Of a stretch of DNA of 64,000 nt, positions 1,048 through 36,912 are shown piece after piece. Every line of letters begins with the position of its first letter. Positions within the stretch are counted from its first letter, which is position 1. Below the pieces are notes generated by a model. It was not told the DNA's origin. It ran no database searches and saw nothing but the letters and a program-made list of their open reading frames with translations. This DNA comes from Orrella marina (lineage in GTDB: Bacteria; Pseudomonadota; Gammaproteobacteria; Burkholderiales; Burkholderiaceae_B), in the NCBI RefSeq assembly GCF_003058465.1, contig NZ_CP028901.1, positions 2,232,001 through 2,296,000 of the forward strand, read 5' to 3'. A program made the translations under genes and the position numbers.

Positions 1048-2337
1048 ATGACCGAACTTCCCGGCAACATCCTTCACCTGCCGCAATACCAAGTACTGGG
1101 CTGCAAATCAACCGACGACGAAATGCACTTCCAGGTGGACGTGCCCGATCCCATCGCCTGCGAGGAATGCGTCGTGCAGGGTGAGTTCGTACGGTTCGGC
1201 AAGCGTGACGTTCCCTATCGTGATCTGCCCATCCACGGCAAGCGGGTCACTCTCTGGGTGGTCCGCCGCCGATACACCTGCCGGGCCTGCAAGACAACAT
1301 TCAGGCCCCAGCTACCGGAGATGGTGGACGGATTCCGTATGACACTGCGGCTGCATGAGTACGTGGAGAAGGAATCCTTCAACCACCCCTACACCTTTGT
1401 GGCGGCACAGACCGGCCTGGACGAGAAGACGGTGCGCGACATCTTCAACGCCCGCGCCGAGTTCCTGGGGCGCTGGCACCGCTTCGAGACGCCCCGCATC
1501 CTGGGCATTGACGAGCTATACCTGAACAAGCGCTACCGCTGCATTCTGACCAACATTGAGGAGCGAACCCTGCTCGACCTGCTGGCCACCCGCCGCCAGG
1601 ACGTGGTGACCAACTACCTGATGAAGCTGAAAGACCGGCAGAAGGTCGAGATCGTCAGCATGGACATGTGGAACCCCTACCGGGCAGCGGTCAAGGCTGT
1701 GCTGCCCCAGGCCCGTATCGTGGTCGATAAGTTCCATGTGGTGCGCATGGCCAACGATGCCCTAGAGAGAGTGCGCAAGGGCCTCAGAAAGGAGCTGAAA
1801 CCGTCCCAGAGCCGGACTCTCAAGGGAGACCGGAAAATCCTGCTGAAACGCGCTCACGAAGTCTCAGACCGGGAGCGCCTCATCATGGAGACCTGGACAG
1901 GCGCGTTCCCGCAACTGCTGGCCGCCTACGAGCACAAGGAGCGCTTCTACGGCATCTGGGACGCCACCACACGGCTCCAGGCAGAAGCCGCCCTGGACGA
2001 GTGGATAGCCACCATCCCGAAGGGCCAAAAGGAAGTCTGGAGCGATCTGGTCAGGGCAGTGGGAAACTGGCGCGAAGAGACCATGACCTACTTCGAGACG
2101 GACATGCCCGTCACCAACGCTTACACGGAGTCCATCAACCGACTGGCCAAGGACAAGAACCGTGAAGGGCGCGGTTACTCCTTCGAGGTGATGCGGGCAC
2201 GAATGCTCTACACCACGAAGCACAAGAAGAAGGCACCGACTGCGAAGGTCTCTCCTTTCTACAAGAAAACCATCGGTTACGGACTGCCGGACTTCGCAGA
2301 GGAACTCAACTACGGAGTCGATCTATCAACCATCTGA
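1048..2337 (+). CDS. tnpA: ISL3-family transposase
   Basis: The 429-aa protein is a full-length ISL3 transposase. The N-terminus has two zinc-finger-like cysteine pairs (CEEC near residue 38 and CRAC near 77), followed by a helix-turn-helix region. The DDE catalytic core is visible: Asp in ILGIDELYLN, Asp in SMDMWNPYR and Glu in TNAYTESINRL. The frame is intact, so the element may still be mobile if its left end is complete. The stop codon lies about 58 bp before the inferred right terminus of the element. Confidence 0.92.
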   Translation: MTELPGNILHLPQYQVLGCKSTDDEMHFQVDVPDPIACEECVVQGEFVRFGKRDVPYRDLPIHGKRVTLWVVRRRYTCRACKTTFRPQLPEMVDGFRMTLRLHEYVEKESFNHPYTFVAAQTGLDEKTVRDIFNARAEFLGRWHRFETPRILGIDELYLNKRYRCILTNIEERTLLDLLATRRQDVVTNYLMKLKDRQKVEIVSMDMWNPYRAAVKAVLPQARIVVDKFHVVRMANDALERVRKGLRKELKPSQSRTLKGDRKILLKRAHEVSDRERLIMETWTGAFPQLLAAYEHKERFYGIWDATTRLQAEAALDEWIATIPKGQKEVWSDLVRAVGNWREETMTYFETDMPVTNAYTESINRLAKDKNREGRGYSFEVMRARMLYTTKHKKKAPTAKVSPFYKKTIGYGLPDFAEELNYGVDLSTI

Positions 2338-33008: not shown

Positions 33009-33377
33009 GACGATCACTCCAGGGTGTCAGGGTACGGAAACAGTCGTAGAAGGAGCTAATTGGACATTGTATAACCGTGTTGGCAAGCATCCGGCTCAAG
33101 AAAGCCATACTCCCCTCACTTTGGGTCTGACAGGTCACCAAATCGGCATAGGGGGTAGCCCGTAGGCTACACCCCTGCCACACCTCCCGGCATGCGGGCC
33201 CGCACCGGGCGGTTCGAGAAGTTGAGGTCATGAGAGTCGGGGTAGACCCAGCCGGTCAAAGTACGCAATCATCAGAACGCCATTGAGGGTCTTCGCGCTG
33301 TTGGTAAGCGAACGGTGAACACATATTGAGGGCAAATCCAGGATGGCCGATCATGTTGGCATGTAACTCTTCAGGAC

Positions 33378-33767
33378 ATGCCCATGACCGAGCTCCACTC
33401 TGCGGTGAACCCACCAACGTCGCGTCGCCGATATAGCGCGCAATTCAAATCCGATGCTGTCCAGGCCTGTCTGGCTCCCGGTGCGGTCATCGCCCACGTC
33501 GCCAGGCAACTCGGCATCAACTACAAGATGCTCGGTCACTGGGTCAATCGCCACCGACGGCAGTTGGCGCAGGACAAGCCCGCGTTTGTCCTCTGGTCAC
33601 CTTCAGAGCGCGAGCCGATCCCGGATCAGGCTTTGAGTTCGCCGCCACAAATGCATCGTGAGCCTATTCGTGTGAGTTGCTCACGTGGCAATCAACAAGT
33701 GAGGATCGAATGGCCGGTGAGTGATGGCCAGCAATGTGCCGAGTTCTTGCGGGAGTGGCTGCGATGA
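33378..33767 (+). CDS. tnpA: IS66 accessory protein TnpA
   Basis: The 129-aa protein has a helix-turn-helix of the transposase_8 type: YSAQFKSDAVQACLAPGA and VARQLGINYKMLGHWVNRHR. It probably binds the IS66 ends. Its TGA overlaps the tnpB ATG, indicating coupled translation. Confidence 0.88.
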   Translation: MPMTELHSAVNPPTSRRRYSAQFKSDAVQACLAPGAVIAHVARQLGINYKMLGHWVNRHRRQLAQDKPAFVLWSPSEREPIPDQALSSPPQMHREPIRVSCSRGNQQVRIEWPVSDGQQCAEFLREWLR

Positions 33768-34099
33768 TGCGCATCGAACAATACTGGCTCGCGCGCGACC
33801 CGATCGATATGCGCGCAGGCATGGAAACCATGCTGGGCAAGGTCGTGTCGGTGTTTGGTGCAGCCCAGGCTCATCACGCCTATTTGTTTACCAATCGACG
33901 AGGCAACCGGATCAAGGTTCTGATCACCGATGGGTTTGGGGTCTGGGTGGCCGCACGACGGTTGCATGATGGTGGGTTTACCTGGACGCAATCGACGGGT
34001 AGTAGCCGGTTGGAGATGACCCAAAGTCAGTTCGATGCACTGGTGCTCGGGCTGCCTTGGCAGCGGGTGTCGAAGGGCGAGATCGTACGCTATGCGTAG
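33764..34099 (+). CDS. tnpB: IS66 accessory protein TnpB
   Basis: The 111-aa protein is the IS66 Orf2 type: DPIDMRAGMETMLGKV, AYLFTNRRGNRIKVL and DGFGVWVAARRLHDGGFTW are the family wording. It is required for IS66 transposition in known elements, with no defined enzymatic role. The start at 33764 overlaps the tnpA stop. Confidence 0.92.
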   Translation: MMRIEQYWLARDPIDMRAGMETMLGKVVSVFGAAQAHHAYLFTNRRGNRIKVLITDGFGVWVAARRLHDGGFTWTQSTGSSRLEMTQSQFDALVLGLPWQRVSKGEIVRYA

Positions 34100-34196
34100 C
34101 GATTTCACGACTCAGATTTGACCGAATTTCTCTATATAAATCAATTGGCAATTGTGCCAATGGCGAGATACTTTCGCGCATGTAATACTGTTTCCC

Positions 34197-35777
34197 ATGA
34201 TCACTGACACCACCGCATTGGAGCACTTGGACGAGCAGGCCCTCAGGCGCCTGGCGCAAGAACTCATGTCGACTGTCGGTGCACAATCCCAGGTGCTGGC
34301 CGAGCACGAACGGGTACTGCGTGAGCGTGATCAGTTGATCAACGAGAAGGATCTCAAGATCGCTCGCCTCACCCAGGAGATTGCAGTGTATCGACGCTGG
34401 CGCTTTGACAAGCGCAGCGAAGCCTTCAAGGGCGCGCAACGCAGCCTGTTTGACGAAGACATCGATGCGGACCTGGCTGCCATGCAGGCTGAACTGGCCG
34501 CTTTGTTGCCCAAGAACGACAAACCGGCTGCACCCAAGGACAAACCCAGGCGCAACACATTTCCGCCGGAACTGCCTCGCACCGAGTTCCATCACGAGCC
34601 TGAGACCACCACCTGTGGATGTGGCTGTGCGCTCAAGCGTATTGGCGAAGATGTCAGCGAGAAGCTGGACTACACGCCGGGCGTGTTTACGGTGGAACGT
34701 CACATCCGCGGCAAGTGGGCTTGTGCCGCTTGCCAGACGCTAACCCAGGCACCGGTGCCCCCACACATCATCGACAAGGGCATCCCGACCCCCGGTCTGC
34801 TAGCCCATGTCATGGTGGCCAAGTATCAGGACCATCTGCCTTTGTACCGTCAGGAGCGCATCTTCGGACGAGCTGGCCTGGAGATTCCGCGTTCGACATT
34901 GTCGCAATGGGTCGGTGTCTGTGGTGTGCGCTTGCAACCCCTGGTTGATGCATTACGCCAGTGCATGCTAAAGCTGCCAGTGTTGCATGCCGATGAAACC
35001 CACGTGCCGATGCTCAAACCCGGTTCGGGCAAGACCCATCGCTCGTTTATCTGGACATACGTCTCGGGTCGGTTCGAGCAGCTCAAAGCTGTCATTTACG
35101 AGTTCCATGACAATCGGGGCAAAGTCAATCCCGAGTCGTTTCTGGCAGGCTGGAAAGGTCAGTTGGTTTGCGACGCCTATGGTGGTTACCACGGTCTGAT
35201 GGCCGAGGGTGTGACGCACATTGGTTGCATGGCGCATGCCAGAAGATATTTCTTCGACTTGCACAAGGCAACGGGTAGTGATGTGGCTGATCAGGCGCTG
35301 GTGATCATCCGGGAGCTCTACAACATCGAACGGGATTGCAAGGATCTTGATACTCAGGCGCGATGGCGAATCAGGCAAACTCGCAGCAAACCGATCATGG
35401 AAAGATATCGTGCCTGGCTGGTATCCCAGCGACTGCTCGCAACAGATGGCACGCAGTTGGCCAAGGCGATCGACTATAGCCTGAAGCATTGGCCGGCATT
35501 GGTTCGCTATCTGGAGGACGGTCAGCTGCCGATAGACAATAATTCAGCTGAGTCCGAAATTCGTCCAGTTGCCGTGGGCCGCTCCAATTGGCAATTCGCC
35601 GGATCCTTGCGCGCAGGAAAGCGTGCCGCAGCGGTGATGAGTCTGATCCAGAGTGCTCGCCTGAACGGGCATGATCCTTACGTCTATTTGAAAGACATCT
35701 TCACGCGACTGCCCACTCATCCGAACAGTCGGATTGAAGAACTGCTGCCTCACAACTGGACCGCACCGACAGTTTGA
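34197..35777 (+). CDS. tnpC: IS66 transposase TnpC
   Basis: The 526-aa DDE transposase has an N-terminal leucine-rich coiled coil (residues 15-70), a zinc-finger-like region (CGCGCALKRI and CAACQTL) and the catalytic core with Asp in LHADETHVPM, Asp in CDAYGGYHGL and Glu in NSAESEIRPVAVGRSNW. ATG 34197 is preferred to the upstream ATG at 34152, which adds non-conserved residues. It ends 32 bp before the right terminal repeat. Confidence 0.94.
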   Translation: MITDTTALEHLDEQALRRLAQELMSTVGAQSQVLAEHERVLRERDQLINEKDLKIARLTQEIAVYRRWRFDKRSEAFKGAQRSLFDEDIDADLAAMQAELAALLPKNDKPAAPKDKPRRNTFPPELPRTEFHHEPETTTCGCGCALKRIGEDVSEKLDYTPGVFTVERHIRGKWACAACQTLTQAPVPPHIIDKGIPTPGLLAHVMVAKYQDHLPLYRQERIFGRAGLEIPRSTLSQWVGVCGVRLQPLVDALRQCMLKLPVLHADETHVPMLKPGSGKTHRSFIWTYVSGRFEQLKAVIYEFHDNRGKVNPESFLAGWKGQLVCDAYGGYHGLMAEGVTHIGCMAHARRYFFDLHKATGSDVADQALVIIRELYNIERDCKDLDTQARWRIRQTRSKPIMERYRAWLVSQRLLATDGTQLAKAIDYSLKHWPALVRYLEDGQLPIDNNSAESEIRPVAVGRSNWQFAGSLRAGKRAAAVMSLIQSARLNGHDPYVYLKDIFTRLPTHPNSRIEELLPHNWTAPTV

Positions 35778-36516
35778 GCTCTGTCAACCTGTCTTGCCCG
35801 GACGCTTACCGCTGTTGCGCCACCATCGCCGTGAGTTTGCGGCAATCCTGTGCGCTTGCACATGACTGGCCCCCATGGCGATGAGTTCCCGGTACATGGT
35901 CTTGCCACGCTTGCATTGCCTGCGCTTGATGGCCCGCAGCCGGTGACGTATCCATTGATCCAGCTCTCGCCAGACTCCTGGAGTTTGCGCCAGTTGGAAG
36001 TAGGCCTTCCAGCCAAGAATGTACGGGCGTAGCCGATCGACGATCTGCTGCATGCTTTGTCCGGCACTGCGACGGGTCAGACTCCGGATCTGATGTTTGA
36101 ACTTGTCCAGAGCTTTTGTCGCCACCTTGCGCTTGACGACCCCTCTCGGAGCCCGCCAGAGACTGTACCCAAGGAACTTGCGCTGACTGAACACACTGGC
36201 CACCGCACTTTTGGTCTCGTTGACCTTGAGCCGCAGCTTTGTGTAAAGCTTTCGCAGCACGGCCATCACCCGCTCACCCGCGCGACGACTTGCGACGTAC
36301 ACATTGCAGTCATCGGCATATCGGGCGAACCGATGGCCTCGCCGTTCCAGTTCCTTGTATGCGATTTCTGTTCGTCGGCTCGCAACTTACGCTCCACGCT
36401 TCCTTTCCACGATCGGTCACCCTTTCGCAGTTGCGCTTCACTTTGCTCACTGTGACCAGCTCGCAGCGGGACTTGCACCCGCAGGTGTGCGCCCATGCTG
36501 GGCGCACAATAGAAAA

Positions 36517-36542
36517 TGCACGTACAGAAAACTGTACGTGCA
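36517..36542 (-). terminator. ihfB terminator and group II intron target hairpin
   Basis: TGCACGTACAG (36517-36527) and CTGTACGTGCA (36532-36542) form a perfect 11-bp stem with a 4-base loop. On the minus strand it is followed by TTTTCTATT and then the intron 5' end. It lies 80 bp after the ihfB stop and would end the rpsA-ihfB transcript. Class C introns insert just behind such hairpins. Confidence 0.88.
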
Positions 36543-36621: not shown

Positions 36622-36912
36622 TCAGCGCTGAAGCGAACTATCTACCTGCTCGCGCAACTGCTTACCCGCCTTGAAGTGCGGCACTTTTTTACCTGGCACC
36701 AATACCTGCTCGCCTGTCTTGGGATTACGTCCAACTCTCGGAGCGCGCTCCGAGAGGGAAAAACTCCCAAAACCCCGAATCTCGATACGTTGCCCATTCG
36801 CGAGCGAACGAACCATCGCATCGATGATCGTCTTGACAGCGATGTCGGCATCTGCCGCGGAGAGTTGTGGATGACTCTCCGCGAGTGCCGTGATCAGTTC
36901 CGATTTTGTCAC
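36622..36912 (-). CDS. ihfB: Integration host factor subunit beta
   Basis: IHF-beta forms a heterodimer with IHF-alpha that bends DNA in recombination, replication and transcription. The 96-aa protein has the HU/IHF fold with the DNA-intercalating arm [24 protein letters not shown] and the C-terminal GKQLRE helix. The start is GTG at 36912 (MTKSELI), the conserved family N-terminus, rather than TTG two codons upstream. It follows rpsA by 12 bp, the conserved rpsA-ihfB arrangement. Confidence 0.95.

Follow-up and report, generated by a model that had tools for sequence, protein, structure and literature searches.

We analysed a window of 64,000 nucleotides from Orrella marina (contig NZ_CP028901.1, positions 2,232,001 to 2,296,000, forward strand), in which a disrupted mobile element lies between ihfB and lapA. 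Window positions 36507 to 33142 on the minus strand are almost certainly the remnant of a class C (IIC) group II intron, and an IS66-family insertion sequence (IS) is found inside it. On the minus strand ihfB ends at 36622, the intron is oriented as ihfB, and the next gene after its 3' end is lapA (LapA_dom, 6.1e-11). The features of the window are collected in Table 1, together with fourteen further copies of the intron in the same genome.

An intron remnant behind the ihfB terminator

The ihfB terminator hairpin had a folding energy (dG) of -18.4 kcal/mol and none of 200 shuffled sequences was equally stable. The spacer TTTTCTATT follows, and by class C precedent it would take the position of intron-binding site 1 (IBS1). 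Directly after it the intron begins with GTGCG at 36507 and opens with its 5' hairpin GTGCGCCCAGCATGGGCGCAC (minus strand). The 3' end is at 33142, where the homology shared with introns at unrelated sites stops in CCGAT. A first-pass annotation, made from the letters of the window, had already put the 5' end at 36507, 9 bp behind a perfect hairpin, and this was borne out; its 3' end at 33143 has to be moved by one base.

For comparison with an empty site, ihfB was matched in 7/8 other genomes of the same genus. Six of these loci were viewed by eye (L149 not among them). One of them (L146 of genome G006) has ihfB and then lapA without intron, and the other five carry different sequence after ihfB, which leaves one comparable locus only.

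Intrinsic terminators are a known target of class C introns according to parts of PMC4424553 and PMC3522654, with B.h.I1 (PMC4424553), So.gl.I1 and Di.ze.I1 (PMC3522654) as examples. The 5' end in the window agrees with the 5' ends of 56 relatives. By a loose first rule 52/56 of these ends stand behind a terminator, and by a strict rule, which asks for a strong stem with a T-run no more than 12 nt away from the 5' end, 34/56 do so; L051, L072, L073 and L104 fail both. The intron shares with bacterial class C introns the 5' and 3' ends, domain V/VI, the type of reverse transcriptase (RT) and the site right behind an intrinsic terminator, but differs from them in that about 1.0 kb of domains I to IV is deleted, a wobble pair in domain V is broken and IS66 sits in the RT gene.

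Without IS66 and one target duplication the intron is 852 bp long, whereas the 51 full-length introns that were extracted, comprising 40 distinct sequences, measure 1822-1864 bp. Domains I to IV are therefore incomplete, with 970-1012 bp gone, in agreement with the lack of about 1 kb first annotated. The lost part covers the rest of domain I, domains II and III, the first part of domain IV and the front of the RT gene, and at the joint domain I breaks off near nt 155 and is followed by the RT gene from immediately upstream of the YADD motif. Rfam group-II-D1D4-3 scored 42.7 bits in the window versus 100-106.5 bits in three intact relatives, and the window matches up to E 1 did not include RF01998 (D1D4-1), which is present in 3/3 of these relatives. 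The sibling copies L132 and L133 have ATACAAGG, which contains ACAAGG, on the domain I side of the joint. On the RT side, GACAAGG was found in 33/51 relatives, other sequence in 11, and the pattern was unmatched in 7. So the deletion probably arose by recombination across this short repeat of 6 bp.

The RT remnant has lost its N-terminal part, and its frame is open for 200 codons. The YADD domain proposed at first was recovered as RYADDCNVY together with the GIIM match, and the closest matches of the remnant include 458-aa RTs of full-length introns that stand behind terminators.

Domains V and VI were recognised by covariance model R1, which was built from 20 relatives with zero copies from this genome, and only 1/200 shuffles was as stable as their fold. 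Domain V of class C introns has a catalytic triad of CGC paired with GUG. The base at the position equivalent to 33185 is T in 78/78 domain V sequences of relatives (77/83 loci, not all independent). In this count the tested base was left free in the pattern, 6/83 loci without a match were excluded, and L052 and L127 belong to one contig. The window has A instead, the base is unpaired in the predicted fold, and G.A replaces the G.U wobble that we take to be part of the triad helix. The domains first annotated here therefore do fold, but the triad helix of domain V has a broken wobble pair. Because the rest of domain V matches, we read the substitution as decay. Outside the 78-sequence set, two deleted copies also differ at or near the wobble base: genome G079 has C, and the helix is disturbed in G006. 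The general Rfam group II domain V family, presumably Intron_gpII, was unlisted at E 0.01 for the window and for all three intact relatives, and since the intact relatives also lack it, its absence is uninformative.

Because the presumed triad wobble is broken and most of domain I is lost together with domains II and III, splicing of the remnant is very unlikely and we regard it as almost certainly dead. As a single locus it is ordinary: the intron is of the usual class C kind, the site is a usual one, and a deletion and a point change have very probably inactivated it.

Table 1. Features of the window and retained parts of the sibling copies (positions of sibling copies are numbered on the full-length relative from L127, unless Azotobacter vinelandii is stated).
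Feature	Position	Strand	Basis or remark
Class C group II intron remnant	33142..36507	-	852 bp intron + IS66 + one target duplication; both ends homologous to relatives
ihfB intrinsic terminator hairpin, intron target	36517..36542	-	perfect 11-bp stem, UUUU loop
T-rich 9-nt spacer, 5' exon edge, from hairpin to intron	36508..36516	-	sequence; similar layout in relatives
Retained 5' part of domain I, ~nt 1-155 of ~1850	36353..36507	-	74-86% identity to relatives (64 matches); RF02001 match
Deletion junction, putative 6-bp microhomology ACAAGG, ~1.0 kb gone	36353..36358	-	own copies L132/L133 and relatives
3' half of intron-encoded RT/maturase gene (YADD, GIIM), IS66-interrupted	35810..36352	-	Pfam GIIM 1.4e-19
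Domains V and VI	33142..33216	-	model R1 89.4 bits, E 4e-17; fold z -3.09
U to A, domain V 3' strand; G.U wobble of presumed CGC triad helix to G.A	33185	-	comparison with relatives' domain V; fold
Complete IS66-family element, 2506 bp	33304..35809	+	Pfam; identical second copy
tnpA of IS66	33378-33767	+	HTH_Tnp_1 1.6e-12
tnpB of IS66	33734-34099	+	TnpB_IS66 8.4e-27
tnpC of IS66	34152-35777	+	DDE_Tnp_IS66 2.8e-101
8-bp target duplication, left copy	33296..33303	.	sequence
8-bp target duplication, right copy	35810..35817	.	sequence
Copy L134	1-85 and 1699-1863		
Copy L130	1-85 and 1715-1863		another IS between, CTCAA on both sides
Copy L135	2-82 and 1697-1863		
Copy L137	1-147 (A. vinelandii numbering) and 1788-1863		
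Copy L136	1-168, 221-276 and 1768-1863		
Copy L131	1-42, 768-883 and 1576-1836		two short RT pieces
Copy L132	1-347		with RT scrap
Copy L133	1-316		
Copies L138, L139, L140, L141			short 5' parts
Copies L210, L211			old, ~70% identity; domain V matched less strongly, at 36.9 and 32.1 bits

The IS66 insertion and its place in the history

Members of the IS66 family have GTAA-type inverted ends and an 8-bp target duplication. The element in the window had GTAAGCG at both ends, the 8-bp duplication CGCTGTTG on both sides and the tnpA-tnpB-tnpC gene order, with no notable difference from the family, so that the complete IS66 described in the first-pass annotation is as stated. IS66 plus one duplication amounts to 2514 bp, a multiple of 3, and its removal keeps the RT frame as had been claimed, although this frame resumes beyond the element for 24 codons before the stop and not for 25.

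A second copy of IS66 (genome C1 ~1.7013-1.7038 Mb) showed 0/2506 differences, and is bounded on both sides by its own duplication GCTCAACG; the insertion in the window is therefore recent. CAAC is common to this duplication, to that of the window (CAACAGCG on the minus strand) and to the GCGCAAC of L163 described below, which could be a possible target preference.

A late arrival of IS66 follows from its identity to the second copy, as against differences of several percent among the intron copies, and the order first read from the letters, the intron and later IS66, holds. The internal deletion could have come last, IS66 having entered a full-length intron and then taken part in the deletion. 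IS66 and the deletion are indeed in the same gene, and in G037 (L163) an apparent IS66-type end, GTAAGC, follows GCGCAAC in the same intron family, beside a deletion (by eye). But the deletion junction in the window is ~540 bp from IS66 and contains no IS sequence, and the element itself is young, so we consider this reversed order unlikely.

Copies of the intron in this genome and elsewhere

We identified 15 copies at 13 sites in the 4.23-Mb single-contig genome, including the window copy (W); one site is weak. The searches used the 5' part, the 3' part, the domain I-III region of a relative, its RT and model R1, for which 150 of 1859 candidates in the genome were scored. No copy was intact (0/15), each being internally deleted or truncated. 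All 15 retained sequence of the 5' half; domain V was matched in 9/15 and unrecognisable in 6/15, and no copy with the 3' end alone was found among the R1 candidates scored. In the common part, W, L132 and L133 were 97-99% identical.

The insertion habit that the first-pass annotation had attributed to class C introns is also seen in these copies. The strict rule places 13/15 behind a terminator, compared with 1/4000 random window positions, and gives 11/13 sites when three rrn-type copies are counted once, while the loose rule gives 14/15 against 417/4000. The three rrn-type copies (L130, L134 and L140) lie behind what is apparently the same rrn operon terminator; 5S and 23S rRNA adjoin L130 and L134, the two of them that were scanned. 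L130 (1061-2947; genome C1 392560-394446) and L134 have one deletion in common, and L140 is cut after 31 nt. No tRNA was found by ARAGORN beside L138, where one had been considered.

The first-pass annotation had suggested a search of the genome for a full-length parent; none was found. The RT search found no intact class C RT in the genome, and the window fragment was the only class C RT sequence of any length that it found besides the L131 pieces. The best other RTs of the genome show 27-36% identity: one of 433 aa in two near-identical copies (C1 500906-502021 and 2162185-2163300), the loci that hold the other two GIIM matches; one of 430-500 aa, also in two near-identical copies (C1 2118300-2119070 and 3354341-3355108) and without GIIM match. 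The fifth of these RTs is at 3181671. The two paired RT families have open reading frames, and other introns of the genome may still be active.

In other genomes, relatives of the RT fragment had 58-72% protein identity and came from Azotobacter, Paraburkholderia, Massilia, Yanghanlia and other genera; of 224 matched stretches, 117 coded for a relative, and the best 80 were used. Full-length class C copies were found in Azotobacter vinelandii (L046, L047, L049) and in Paraburkholderia. The 5' part (E 1e-8) was present in 16/101 genomes including this one, with at most 8 candidates scored per genome, and the RT match (E 1e-30) in 6. Deleted class C copies, with domain V too near to the 5' end, were found in G006, G037, G070, G079 and G080 (5/26 loci scanned); most of the other scanned loci stop 1.5 kb past the 5' part or at a contig end, too early for the domain V of an intact copy to be seen. 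Death by deletion therefore also occurs outside this genome. In G079, from another family, L157 stands behind a terminator-like hairpin and is a mini-intron of ~220 bp in which 5' domain I runs directly into domain V. In G080, which has several copies of the 5' part, L178 (~630 bp) retains its 5' sequence of domains I-III and a domain V that looks intact, with little or no RT gene, and is a candidate for an intron without open reading frame.

Such short forms raise the question whether the deleted copies were non-autonomous mini-introns, mobilised in trans by the RT of an intact parent, so that the window copy arrived already deleted. In L134, L135 and L137 hardly more than the two ends survives (216-237 bp), and the short copies L157 and L178 point the same way. 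Furthermore, the same 11-bp repeat, GCGCAAC(T/A)GCG, is the cut point in both L134 and L135 at unrelated sites; its two units are ~1.6 kb apart in relatives (1587-1625 bp; 20/51 measured, the RT-side unit being unmatched in 31/51). However, the variable base of the repeat is T in one of these copies and A in the other, which suggests two separate deletions as the simplest case, though a later point change could mimic this. Apart from L130 and L134 behind two rrn operons, no further pair with a common junction was seen by eye, and the genome searches for copies found the window junction at no other site. Copies without most of domains I, II and III should neither splice nor reverse-splice, and the RT search gave no intact parent. 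We therefore hold mobilisation in trans to be very improbable.

It might also be asked whether the remnant was kept for use by the host, for example to provide one more hairpin for insulation between ihfB and lapA, or a protein with the maturase domain. The 5' hairpin is perfectly paired in 8/15 copies (W, L130, L132, L133, L134, L135, L139 and L140, by eye), the RT remnant has its 200 open codons, and the 5' half outlasted domain V among the copies. But the other 7/15 copies have a changed hairpin or none, IS66 has removed the end of the RT, and the 5' side would likewise persist if selection acts against deletions that reach the terminator, which makes a host function scarcely credible.

Some other features of the copies were observed. 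At the base of the L135 hairpin (nt 1 and 21) a paired change from G-C to A-T was seen, perhaps copied across the palindrome. In L141 (oriented copy, ~1228) the first recognisable intron bases are duplicated in inverted form around the terminator, giving a long palindrome GTGTGCC...GGCACAC. L132 1939-2003 (genome C1 2706938-2707002) matched Betaproteobacteria_toxic_sRNA (Rfam, 66.5 bits), with the intron copy directly behind it.

Probable extinction of the intron family in place

The eight best-preserved own copies, at seven sites, formed one clade with support 96/78, present in 96% of 200 bootstrap trees (51 rows, up to 175 nt; G027 and G045 left out). Because these copies fall into one clade, a single founder probably spread in this genome and then died out. 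The window copy would have come from this lineage, which spread to many terminators of the genome. It would have retrohomed behind the ihfB terminator in the direction of ihfB, presumably by reverse splicing. It then lost ~1.0 kb, probably by recombination across the 6-bp microhomology, and acquired the substitution in the presumed triad helix. A complete IS66 entered the last codons of the RT remnant recently.

Taken over the genome, we think it fairly likely that the intron inserted about 13 separate times, with a single founder behind seven or more of these insertions, that each copy was killed by its own deletions and that no intact one survived, that is, that the proliferation became extinct in place. 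Several points weigh against the account of the window copy and its lineage given above. L133, with a stem that is imperfect by eye, does not pass the terminator rule, L138 passes the loose rule only and has a weak stem, and the strict cut-off was set after the scores were seen. The tree holds 8/15 own copies over at most 175 nt, with L136 flagged as a long branch; the seven copies outside it are too short, too diverged or have lost the greater share of the 5' part. The match of L141 is weak, with 43 nt at E 1.7e-5, and the eroded 5' edges of L141 and L211 were set by hand. For the window deletion the founder is unavailable, so the RT-side microhomology was taken from relatives (33/51).

According to parts of a survey of Enterobacteriales (Leclercq and Cordaux 2012, PMC3522654), fragments of group II introns generally have no siblings within their genome. 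The copies described here are likewise inactive remnants of a mobile intron, but there are 15 degraded copies at 13 sites and none intact, in contrast to what those parts of PMC3522654 describe. In the open-licence literature, judged mostly from listings, we found no report of such a copy set for class C introns. The number of dead copies is a less ordinary fact than the window locus.

The set offers 15 copies of one element that bear deletion junctions of their own, and would allow loss through repeat-mediated internal deletion to be measured. It bears also on the route of extinction, by selection against loaded genomes, which PMC3522654 favours for Enterobacteriales in the sections concerned, or by decay in place. 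If true, extinction in place would contradict the view that past proliferations are traceless, the genomes that carried them having been removed by selection.

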